From Burkholderia sp. TSV86 (GTDB lineage: Bacteria; Pseudomonadota; Gammaproteobacteria; Burkholderiales; Burkholderiaceae): 64,000 nt of DNA. The stretch spans positions 1 to 64,000 of the forward strand of contig NZ_LOWB01000021.1 in the NCBI RefSeq assembly GCF_001522865.1. The letters run 5' to 3'. How positions within the stretch are numbered: the first letter of the stretch is position 1; the number at the start of each line of letters is the position of its first letter. The notes below the pieces were generated by a model. The model searched no databases. It worked only from the letters and a program-made list of their open reading frames with translations, and had not been told where the DNA came from. Position numbers and translations under genes: made by a program. Shown here in pieces: positions 41,370 to 44,218 of the stretch.

Positions 41370-42914
41370 TCACGCGCGCTGCGGATTGAGCTTGTCGTTC
41401 GAATGCAGCTTGTTCAGCGCCGCGATATACGCCTTCGCCGATGCCGCGACGATATCCGGATCGGTGCCGACGCCATTGACGATGCGCCCGCTCCTCGACA
41501 GCCGCACCGTCACCTCGCCTTGCGCCTGCGTGCCGGTCGTAATCGCGTTGACCGAATACAGCAGCAGTTCCGCGCCGCTGCCCACCTCGCTCTCGATCGC
41601 ATTGAACGTCGCGTCGACGGGCCCGTTGCCGTTGGCCTCGCCCTCCACTTGCACGCCGCCCGCCGAGAATACGACCGTCGCCTGCGGCCGCTCGCCCGTC
41701 TGCGAGCGTTGCGACAGCGACACGAACCGGTAATGCTCGTGCTCGTGCGCCAGCGCCGATTCCTCCTCGGTGACGATCGCGATGATGTCTTCATCGAAGA
41801 TTTCGGCCTTGCGATCGGCGAGATCCTTGAAGCGCGCGAACGCTGCGTTCAATTCGGCTTCGCTGTCGAGCGACACGCCAAGCTCCTGCAAACGCTGCTT
41901 GAACGCGTTGCGGCCCGACAGCTTGCCCAGCACGATCTTGTTCGCGGTCCAGCCGACGTCTTCCGCCCGCATGATCTCGTAGGTGTCGCGCGCCTTCAGC
42001 ACGCCGTCCTGATGGATGCCCGACGCATGCGCGAATGCGTTCGCACCGACCACCGCCTTGTTCGGCTGCACGACAAAGCCCGTGATCTGCGATACGAGCT
42101 TAGACGCCGGCACGATCTGCGTCGTATCGATGCCCAGGTCAAGCCCGAAGTAGTCCTTGCGGGTTCTCACCGCCATCACGATCTCCTCGAGCGATGTATT
42201 GCCCGCGCGCTCGCCGAGACCGTTGATCGTGCACTCGACCTGCCGCGCGCCGCCGATCTTCACGCCCGCAAGCGAGTTCGCGACCGCCATTCCCAGATCG
42301 TTATGACAATGCACCGAGAAAACCGCCTTGTCCGAGTTCGGAATGCGCTCGCGCAGCGTCTTCACGAGGTTGCCGTACAGTTCCGGCACGCCGTAGCCGA
42401 CCGTATCGGCAATATTGATCGTCGTCGCGCCCTCGTCGATCACCGCCTCCAGCACGCGGCAGAGGAAATCCATGTCCGAGCGGCTGCCGTCCTCGGGCGA
42501 AAATTCGATGTTGTCGGTGAACTTGCGCGCGAAACGCACGGCCAGACGCGCCTGTTCGAACACCTGATCGGGCGTCATCCGCAGCTTCTTCTCCATGTGC
42601 AGCGGCGACGTCGCGATGAACGTATGGATCCGGAAGCTGTTGGCGGGCTTGAGCGCATCGGCCGCGCGCTGAATGTCCTTGTCGTTTGCGCGCGCGAGCG
42701 AGCAGATCGTGCTGTCTTTGACCTGCTGCGCGATCGTGTGGATCGCGTCGAAATCGCCATTCGAGCTGGCGGCGAAGCCGGCCTCGATCACGTCGACCTT
42801 CATTCGCTCGAGTTGCTTCGCGATGCGGATTTTCTCTTCCTTCGTCATCGACGCGCCGGGCGACTGCTCGCCGTCACGCAACGTCGTGTCGAAAATGATC
42901 AGCTTGTCTGTCAT
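41370..42914 (-). CDS. leuA: 2-isopropylmalate synthase
   Basis: A 514-residue enzyme that condenses acetyl-CoA with 2-oxoisovalerate, the committed step to leucine. The N-terminal TIM barrel has [13 protein letters not shown] (residues 8-20) and the metal histidines H202 and H204 (SVHCHNDLG). The C-terminal LeuA allosteric domain (about 390-505), where leucine binds for feedback control, is complete. GGAGTCCCCC precedes the ATG at 42914. Upstream lies a 185-base leader with a leucine-rich small reading frame, which suggests control by leucine-dependent translation. Confidence 0.96.
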
Positions 42915-43018
42915 GGGGGACTCCAGGTTTCGAATGGGGCAATACACGTGATGAAGCTCGCGCCACCGCAGGCGACACTGGAACAGCAGACGAAGCTCGA
43001 CGGAGGGCGAAAACGGGG

Positions 43019-43099
43019 TCAGCGCGACAGGCGCGCTAGAGCTAGCGCGCGTAGCGGCGCACCGGCTAGAAGAAGAGAAAGGCGGGAGGATGCGGTCAT
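43019..43099 (-). CDS. Putative leucine leader peptide of leuA
   Basis: A 26-codon reading frame ending in TGA, 104 bases upstream of leuA. Eight of its 26 residues are leucine: a run of three (L9-L11), four more at L7, L16, L19 and L21, and L24. The leucine codons are three CTT, four CTA and one CTG, whereas neighbouring genes use almost only CTG and CTC. No Shine-Dalgarno is visible, but the ATG sits 7 bases after a TATAGT box, so the message would be nearly or fully leaderless. The codons L16-L21 lie in or next to a perfect hairpin, GCGCGCTA-N4-TAGCGCGC (43031-43050). This is the layout expected of a leu attenuator or translational switch. The product itself need not have a function. Confidence 0.7.
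43031..43050 (-). promoter_or_regulatory. Perfect hairpin inside the leucine leader frame
   Basis: GCGCGCTA and TAGCGCGC pair over 8 bases with a 4-base loop. The stem carries two of the CTA leucine codons, so a ribosome waiting at leucine codons would decide whether it forms. AGCTC and GCGC of this region can also pair, with a two-base bulge, with GCGCGAGCT about 75 bases further down the leader (around 42952-42961), giving an alternative fold. There is no U-tract. Confidence 0.5.
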
Positions 43100-43106
43100 G
43101 CTGGCG

Positions 43107-43135
43107 ACTATAGCGGCATTCCGAGTGGCGCGCAA
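43107..43135 (-). promoter_or_regulatory. Sigma-70 promoter of the leuA leader
   Basis: On the minus strand TTGCGC (43130-43135) and TATAGT (43107-43112, 5 of 6 to consensus) are separated by exactly 17 bases. The expected first transcribed base is at or next to the A of the leader-peptide ATG (43099), which explains the missing Shine-Dalgarno site. Confidence 0.65.
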
Positions 43136-43336
43136 TCGGAGGCTTCCCCAAGCAAGCGCTGCGCGCCGCGGCGCGGTTTTGCCCTGGACGAGCATCGGCG
43201 CAAAGCCGGGAACGGCATGCGCCGCAGGTGCGGCGCGCAGGAAAAACAACCGTCGCGGCTTGCCAAGGAAAACGGCGGCCAAGCCGGCCGCCGTCCCCGC
43301 TACATCGCGCTGCCGCGCATCAAGCGCGGCGGGCCG

Positions 43337-44218
43337 TCAATGCTCGCGCTGCGACGAGCGCGCCGGATTCGCCCGTCCACGCACCGCCATATACGCCCAA
43401 AACACATAGCCGGACAGCCCGTACAGCACGAACAGGCCGAACAGCATCAGCGGAGGATCGGACGAAACGAGCACGAACGCGACGACCACGAGCAGGATCG
43501 CCGCAAACGGCACCCGGTGGCGGACGTCGAGCGCCTTGCCGCTATAAAAGGGCGCATTCGACACCATCGTCACGCCCGCGTAAACCGTCAGCGCGAACGC
43601 GACCCACGGCAGCCAGCCGAGCTTCACCGGCACGCGATTGTCGACGGTGAGCCACACGAAGCCCGCGATCAGCGCGGCGGCGGCCGGACTCGGCAGCCCC
43701 TGGAAGAAGCGCTTGTCGACAACGCCGATATTCGTGTTGAAACGCGCGAGACGCAGCGCCGCGCCCGAGCAGTAGACGAATGCGGCAAGCCACCCCCAGC
43801 GGCCAAGATCCTTCAGCACCCATTCGTACATCACGAGCGCCGGCGCGACGCCGAACGACACCATGTCCGACAGGCTGTCGAACTGCTCGCCGAATGCGCT
43901 TTGCGTATGCGTGAGCCGCGCGACGCGGCCGTCCATTCCGTCGAGCACCATCGCTGCGAAGATCGCGATCGCCGCGGTCTCGAAACGGACGTTCATCGCC
44001 TGCACGACAGCAAAGAAACCGCAAAAAAGCGCGGCCGTGGTAAACGCGTTCGGCAGCAGATAAATGCCGCGCGTTCTCAGGAATTGCTGCCGGCGCGCGG
44101 CACGGCGTCCTTCGACGGGCGCCAGATCCGGCGCGGCGGCGACGGATTTGTTGCGGCGAAACGACCGCGGCCACGGGGCTTTGCCATTGCGCGGGCGGCG
44201 CGGTTTGAATGCAGCCAT
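43337..44218 (-). CDS. pssA: CDP-diacylglycerol-serine O-phosphatidyltransferase
   Basis: A 293-residue membrane enzyme that makes phosphatidylserine from CDP-diacylglycerol and serine. The CDP-alcohol phosphotransferase signature D-G-x2-A-R-x8-G-x3-D-x3-D is seen in LDGMDGRVARLTHTQSAFGEQFDSLSD (about 93-119). About seven to eight helices follow a 45-residue basic N-terminal extension. This is the integral-membrane (type II) PssA, not the E. coli peripheral type. It follows psd by 16 bases; together they make phosphatidylethanolamine. Confidence 0.95.
   Translation of the reverse strand: MAAFKPRRPRNGKAPWPRSFRRNKSVAAAPDLAPVEGRRAARRQQFLRTRGIYLLPNAFTTAALFCGFFAVVQAMNVRFETAAIAIFAAMVLDGMDGRVARLTHTQSAFGEQFDSLSDMVSFGVAPALVMYEWVLKDLGRWGWLAAFVYCSGAALRLARFNTNIGVVDKRFFQGLPSPAAAALIAGFVWLTVDNRVPVKLGWLPWVAFALTVYAGVTMVSNAPFYSGKALDVRHRVPFAAILLVVVAFVLVSSDPPLMLFGLFVLYGLSGYVFWAYMAVRGRANPARSSQREH

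Follow-up and report, generated by a model that had tools for sequence, protein, structure and literature searches.

In enteric bacteria, leuA is preceded by leuL, a leucine-rich leader with rare CUA codons in which the position of the ribosome acts as the sensor. Here we describe a leucine-rich leader frame upstream of leuA in Burkholderia sp. TSV86 (5.8 Mb in 135 contigs), found on the minus strand of a stretch of 64,000 nucleotides (contig NZ_LOWB01000021.1, positions 1 to 64,000; hereafter the window) and compared with loci of its genus, family, and order. It resembles leuL in being a short Leu-rich frame upstream of leuA, with rare CUA codons and presumably the ribosome as sensor, but it has no Shine-Dalgarno (SD) sequence, is seemingly leaderless, and, since no U-tract terminator was found, departs from a classical attenuator in one defining feature. 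The element is probably a leucine attenuator that controls leuA by means of a leaderless leader peptide, with a Rho-dependent output favored here.

Several other described systems share parts of this arrangement. In Sinorhizobium, the trpL RNA (rnTrpL) is reported to start with the ATG of the leader frame and is likewise an amino-acid-sensing leader, but it concerns Trp and has a terminator (PMC7298713), whereas the present leader concerns Leu and has a predicted start. The Actinobacterial LEU element, described with a pseudoknot, a stem between the Leu run and the SD, and an unknown mode of regulation (PMC1262725), also has a Leu-run leader upstream of leuA, whereas in the present leader the corresponding stem is only a possible 4-bp CUCU:GGAG pairing and the predicted openness of the SD is independent of ribosome position. 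Cysteine-rich upstream open reading frames of mycobacteria, for which amino-acid-directed attenuation has been proposed, are alike in being small upstream frames, but concern cysteine and belong to another phylum (PMC4633059). No leuA leader of Burkholderia or its order was found described in the open-licence literature, a search that did not extend to the proteobacterial survey of Vitreschak 2004, the likeliest source, and leucine is not mentioned in the available text of a genome-wide attenuator survey (PMC2965389).

The leader frame and its recurrence upstream of leuA

The frame lies between the gene that we take to be pssA, whose minus-strand interval ends at 43337, and the gene that we take to be leuA, encoding 2-isopropylmalate synthase and starting at 42914 (both names were assigned from the sequence; all coordinates are those of the window, Table 1). 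The first-pass annotation had read here a 26-codon frame with eight leucines, seven of them CTA or CTT, and this reading stands, with CTT used three times, CTA four times, and CTG once. Among the 124 Leu codons of five neighboring genes CTA is absent and CTT occurs 11 times, against which seven rare codons in eight have a binomial P of 3e-7, and leuA of the same-genus loci L002-L031 likewise uses no CTA in 1085 Leu codons. The leader is real and far from chance. The window contains 10 short frames situated 5–8 nt after a −10-like box, and the leader is the sole Leu-rich one. The whole genome has 24 strict TATAnT-N7-ATG sites (two unreadable in the fetched loci), and among the readable ones the leuA site alone is followed by a short Leu-rich frame ahead of an amino-acid gene; one other 26-codon frame at such a site (L338) has four Leu codons and no amino-acid gene in the frames printed. 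Of 250 order genomes, 14 contain a pattern derived from leaders of other families (TATATT-N7-ATG-N40-70-CTGCTGCTGCGC), with 13 of these matches being leuA leaders, and none contains the reversed pattern; a sample of 299 phylum genomes gave one match, in an order member and not at a leuA leader. Comparison of 42700-43500 with Rfam 15 returned two matches, with E up to 5 and both far below the gathering score, and six leader peptides gave no match in Pfam and one in NCBIfam (E 0.88), far below the cut-off.

The leaderless start proposed in the first-pass annotation is very probable on account of the −10 distance and the missing SD, and the transcript is predicted to begin with the A of the ATG or an adjacent nucleotide. 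Among 185 distinct leaders (all classes except "other"), 175 have a best −10 box, sought within 36 nt, that ends 6–7 nt ahead of the ATG, and one carries an SD-like 4-mer; because these leaders had been preselected for a −10 box 5–9 nt from the ATG, the evidence is the narrow peak within that range together with the lack of an SD. Leaderless transcripts occur in Burkholderia cenocepacia (PMC4603805) and in Cupriavidus metallidurans (PMC7563307); leuA is not named in the main text, as distinct from the tables, of two B. cenocepacia papers (PMC4603805, PMC5688073), nor in the main text of the C. metallidurans paper (PMC7563307).

In an alignment of 30 loci of the genus, the conserved block starts at the promoter, and the ATG and the stop stay in frame throughout, one locus carrying a 6-nt insertion; Burkholderia-type leaders in general are 26 to 30 codons long (n = 91). 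Non-conservation of the frame or of its Leu codons was looked for and is not the case, and the leader recurs across the order. A detector that takes an ATG 3–10 nt past a −10-like box (at least 4/6) with a frame of 8–60 codons and at least three Leu codons found a leader upstream of leuA in 113 of 132 family loci and 61 of 98 order loci, leaving 56 of the 230 without one, and matched 108 of 2290 dinucleotide shuffles and 3 of 229 reverse complements. By genus (g1 being taken as Burkholderia and the other names inferred by resemblance to named loci), the matches were 40/40 in g1, 7/7 in g27, 1/1 in g29, 1/1 in g31, 1/8 in g32, 20/21 in g34, 5/7 in g35, 3/3 in g36, 3/3 in g37, 0/1 in g40, 0/2 in g41, 16/22 in g44, 5/5 in g48, and 11/11 in g49. 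In a second set of 80 named loci, 44 were positive, including Burkholderia, Cupriavidus, Polynucleobacter, Limnohabitans, Acidovorax, Hydrogenophaga, and Noviherbaspirillum, and those without a detected leader include Collimonas, Janthinobacterium, Massilia, Variovorax, and Pararobbsia. Judged from the shuffle rate, about 5% of the detector matches may be due to chance, and a few of the listed peptides look so; L056, L171, L237, L244, and L253, for example, are probably chance or decayed frames, the L253 match, with its −10 box 10 nt from another ATG, being taken as a chance frame. In these counts L114 was dropped (its LeuA motif was not read), L218 was scored as a miss from 98 bases only, and two genomes were counted twice (the misses L054/L079 and the hits L057/L072). 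Identical sequences were kept in the detector, named-set, and terminator counts and collapsed in the analyses of −10 distance, codon use, synonymous change, reading frame, folding, and C-rich stretches.

Frame-specific Leu-richness is seen in six classes of leader. Frame 0 of Burkholderia-type leaders has 7.3 Leu codons, whereas the two other frames have 1.5 and 1.4 and shuffled sequences 3.9, and the excess is alike in the remaining types, although picking frames with at least three Leu codons inflates the frame-0 count somewhat. Alternative codons are synonymous in 18 of 38 cases at consensus-Leu positions, compared with 33 of 123 elsewhere (P 0.027). The leader is read as protein, and it is chiefly the leucines that matter. 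Synonymous drift, for which a test was suggested in the first-pass annotation, is weak. Selection on the whole peptide was considered and rejected, the synonymous test being significant in no single genus (g1 P 0.09, g34 0.37, g44 0.11, g49 0.14, g27 0.64, g48 1.0) nor in the LLLR (P 0.61) or Comamonadaceae (P 0.09) types, and only the pooled 26-codon Burkholderia group reaching P 0.048. The share of CTA is 53% in Burkholderia-type leaders and 6% in the LLLR-type leaders of other families, where CTG makes up 60%, and these CTG-rich leaders speak against rare-codon sensing as a general rule; in the window, codon choice and structure are entangled because CTA overlaps the CTAG of a hairpin.

A few loci and segments merit mention beside these counts. 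The leader's reading frame is open further upstream in the window (43019-43282, minus strand; 87 codons from a TTG), a caveat, but the sequence upstream of the promoter diverges with indels between species in the genus alignment. The exception to that divergence is a GC hairpin with a short T run (ACGGCGGCC..GGCCGCCGTTTT), seen by eye 3′ of pssA in the window (43268-43294, minus strand), which recurs in the genus alignment and is not listed by the stock scan; it resembles the end of the pssA unit, and leuA may be a transcription unit of its own. A same-genus genome contains a second 73% match to the 5′ coding DNA of leuA (G019:C4:91970-92179), perhaps a paralogue. In L113 (g34), leader-related sequence and a promoter lie upstream of leuA, and no intact Leu-rich frame was found there. 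A Rubrivivax metagenome-assembled genome (L267) has a possible leaderless GTG leader past TACATT, followed by a GC hairpin with a T run, and was missed because the detector takes ATG only.

Leader types with and without a terminator

Leaders were labeled by genus and peptide pattern after the terminator scan, and contrasts between the types are correlations across related lineages; 17 leaders labeled "other," left out of these contrasts, include Cupriavidus necator L323, which properly belongs to the Cupriavidus type. Terminator-like U-tract hairpins were found in 47 of 51 leaders of the Cupriavidus/Ralstonia (13/13), Polynucleobacter (7/7), and Comamonadaceae-like (27/31) types, compared with 3 of 139 leaders of the Burkholderia (2/91, the g34 pair) and LLLR (1/48, L216) types, and in 3 of the 17 others. 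By set, they are present in 16/16 leaders of g27, g29, g36, and g48, in 31/43 named leaders, and in 5/58 order leaders, and were found in 0/70 leaders of g1, g37, g44, and g49 and in 0/7 of g31, g32, and g35; g34 gave 2/20 matches, both of them to the frame-end hairpin, whose tail is mixed. In the window, neither the stock scan nor the terminator scan found a U-tract terminator between the leader frame and leuA, and the absence stated in the first-pass annotation is confirmed for the window and its lineage. The terminator-bearing leaders occupy the same place as the leader of the window and have a probably leaderless Leu-rich frame of the same kind. Their frame tails pair with the 5′ arm of the terminator better than shuffled tails do in 6/9 Cupriavidus/Ralstonia, 5/6 Polynucleobacter, and 1/30 Comamonadaceae leaders.

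Where the terminator is absent, the last codons form a hairpin, and in the LLLR type five stem patterns account for 44 of 48 loci, the fifth pair being C-G in eight and G-C in nine. In L180, L207, and L259, the stop codon lies in the hairpin loop and the 3′ arm outside the frame, which points to a constraint on the RNA. The mean folding z at the frame end is −0.88 in the LLLR and −1.08 in the Burkholderia type, compared with +1.21 in the Cupriavidus/Ralstonia, +0.54 in the Comamonadaceae, and −0.50 in the Polynucleobacter type. By a criterion of sequence only, the 20 nt past the stop are in the top 5% of their surroundings as C-rich and G-poor in 54 of 83 leaders of the LLLR (37/48) and Burkholderia (17/35) types, compared with 2 of 48 of the terminator types (Cupriavidus/Ralstonia 0/10, Comamonadaceae 2/31, Polynucleobacter 0/7). 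The stretch was rejected as exclusive to one type, given that Comamonadaceae-type leaders also have G-poor 10 nt. A motif resembling CCCC(A)CAATTCG recurs about 20 nt past the leader stop in many LLLR-type loci. Rho loads on C-rich, G-poor sequence. It is possible, though rather less likely than not, that a leaderless leucine sensor has been kept across the order while its output has been exchanged, being a U-tract terminator in some lineages and a frame-end hairpin with a C-rich Rho-loading stretch in others, with some Paraburkholderia keeping only the promoter and hairpin P2 (Table 1).

Natural losses of the leader also occur. The promoter is kept and the ATG position altered in L054/L079 (one genome), L059, L122, L125, L253, and L254, of which the last two are named Paraburkholderia, and L060 keeps the ATG with no Leu-rich frame after it. 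P2 is present without a Leu-rich leader frame in L059, L125, L253, and L254. From these losses with promoter and P2 kept, the leader seems to decay once it is untranslated, and P2 may have a role of its own, independent of the leader. By eye, leuA seemingly follows directly on the upstream gene, with no such leader, in L077 (g40), L078 (g41), and L255 (Pararobbsia).

RNA structures and the proposed control of leuA

Table 1. Features of the leuA leader region of Burkholderia sp. TSV86, in window coordinates
Feature	Position	Strand	Remarks
−35-like hexamer TTGCGC	43130..43135	-	TTGCGC or TTGCAC kept in the genus alignment
−10 hexamer TATAGT	43107..43112	-	17-nt spacer; 7 nt from its last T to the ATG
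Leu-rich leader frame	43019..43099	-	26 codons and TGA; transcript start predicted at its A
Hairpin A:B, GCGCGCTA-GCTC-TAGCGCGC	43031..43050	-	8 bp and 4-nt loop; inside the frame, over Leu19 and Leu21
Competing hairpin B:C, TAGCGCG/CGCGCTG	43019..43038	-	includes part of the stop codon; RNAalifold prediction for the clade
C-rich, G-poor stretch, rut-like	42999..43018	-	directly past the stop; its part X can pair with Z
Hairpin P2 (Y:Z), GTGTCGCC-TGC-GGTGGCGC	42960..42978	-	no U-tract behind it
Segment Z, GGTGGCGCGA	42958..42967	-	can pair with X, Y, or C, or with further GC segments upstream
SD region of leuA, CTGGAG	42921..42926	-	
leuA	41370..42914	-	translation read; relatives compared

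The 8-bp hairpin that the first-pass annotation placed over the last Leu codons (A:B) is present, but Leu24 lies outside it, and in some relatives it relies on G-U pairs or is interrupted by a mismatch. It was rejected as the key element, being broken by the mismatch in g34 and having Leu21 replaced in L017, L019, and L021. Hairpin B:C is the counterpart of the frame-end hairpin of other families. The comparison of relatives behind these statements on A:B and B:C omitted eight loci, seven lacking a leader with five or more Leu codons and one having a long frame. Ranked by C minus G among all 20-nt windows on both strands of the 64 kb, the C-rich stretch falls in the top 0.46%, and local folding is weak there (z +0.40, 40 nt). 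The P2 motif GTCGCCANCGGTGGCGC is carried by relatives (48 of 200 family genomes) and occurs in the window as a variant, in which P2 is modest (−13.6 kcal/mol, z −0.70). Segment Z lies about 30 nt before the SD of leuA, and the long-range pairing claimed for such a segment is possible with several GC segments but shows little covariation. In 87 aligned sequences, helices of up to 7 bp show double changes in 0–2 cells, the exceptions being a pairing of the frame middle with the frame end (10 cells) and the 4-bp CUCU:GGAG pairing with the SD (12 cells), where cells count sequences and not events. When a ribosome at the stop is simulated by masking in 86 Burkholderia-type sequences (L084 and L115, with no P2 motif, were left out), the mean pairing of P2 rises from 0.08 to 0.48 and that of X:Z falls from 0.59 to 0.10, and in g1 C:Z pairing goes from 0.14 up to 0.45 when the ribosome sits on an earlier Leu codon; such folding is taken as a suggestion only.

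A mechanism may be proposed in which transcription would start on the A of the leader ATG or beside it and a ribosome would begin on the bare 5′ end. With ample charged tRNA-Leu, the ribosome would pass the Leu codons, reach the stop, and leave; the C-rich stretch would then be open, P2 would form, and transcription would end before leuA, most likely through Rho. When leucine is scarce, the ribosome would wait on the Leu codons, the C-rich stretch would pair with Z, and the polymerase would read into leuA. Leucine-dependent ribosome progress, as first suggested for this leader, is supported as the natural reading of a conserved Leu-rich leader, and we regard the leader as a leucine sensor with high confidence. 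We infer this response, like the start site, from a frame, a Leu-richness, a promoter geometry, and a recurrence that are observed. That the output lies at transcription rather than translation is also likely, although with less assurance. Rho-dependent output, raised as one option in the first-pass annotation, is favored by the C-rich stretch and the absence of a U-tract, but the part of Rho itself is indirect and is proposed tentatively.

Several observations call for caution over this mechanism or weigh against it. The promoter claimed earlier (TTGCGC-17-TATAGT) has the right geometry, but its −35 hexamer is weak (3/6 match to TTGACA) and the stock promoter scan lists no promoter at the leader site. 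Rare Leu codons, a further claim, are found in the window but are lineage-specific. The GC helices hardly covary in the 87 aligned sequences. In mask folding, the window's own sequence stays in X:Z under the stop mask (0.76 to 0.70), a ribosome on the Leu codons changes pairing little compared with no ribosome, and the positive control failed, the expected switch being absent in the terminator types. Folding of the 35 nt past the stop is poorer than that of shuffles in Burkholderia-type leaders (z +0.92), but at z +0.30 the LLLR type is no different from the Comamonadaceae type (+0.36).

The high count of double changes at CUCU:GGAG, the most of any helix listed, speaks for an alternative in which translation of the leader remodels the RNA and opens or closes the ribosome-binding site of leuA. 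This pairing of CUCU in the frame with GGAG of the SD has seven extra pair types, a base stem of this kind belongs to the Actinobacterial LEU element (PMC1262725), and the Burkholderia lineage lacks a U-tract. A 4-bp match of a C/U-rich segment to an SD nevertheless arises easily, the median distance from the frame end to leuA is 111 and 101.5 nt, which argues against simple coupling, and the predicted openness of the SD and start does not respond to the ribosome, being 0.51 in all three ribosome states in 88 Burkholderia-type sequences and 0.40, 0.41, and 0.42 in 48 LLLR-type sequences by the same unvalidated method. The translational output allowed for in the first-pass annotation is not borne out by these predictions, and we consider it unlikely. 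Otherwise classical attenuation with an unusual intrinsic termination at P2 is equally improbable: the compact GC hairpin P2 competes with X:Z, and close relatives bear terminator-like hairpins there, but no U run follows it in the window, where its predicted stability is modest, and U-tract terminators are absent from g1, g37, g44, and g49, those of g34 being frame-end hairpins.

Two further explanations set the control of leuA aside or make it secondary. A role in trans of the leader as peptide or RNA, as reported for the leaderless leader peptide and RNA of Sinorhizobium (peTrpL/rnTrpL; PMC7298713), is very unlikely here, where the non-Leu residues vary with little sign of selection and the frame tails differ by type together with the RNA segments that they encode. 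That the leader is a chance short frame in the 5′ region of a constitutive leuA could be argued from the commonness of short frames, the frame being open further upstream, and the loci without a leader, but the recurrence relative to shuffles, the frame-specific Leu-richness, and the narrow −10 distance make this the least credible explanation of all. A leucine attenuator acting on transcription thus remains the preferred reading.

If this reading is true, many bacteria of a large order would control leucine synthesis through an element that matches no Rfam family and whose translation begins with no 5′ leader. How one sensor is wired to different termination machineries could then be readily compared between orthologous leaders that have an intrinsic terminator and those that lack it, and the loci without a leader ATG would serve as natural knock-outs. 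If the output has indeed been exchanged between lineages, one attenuation machinery would have replaced another in nature at orthologous positions.
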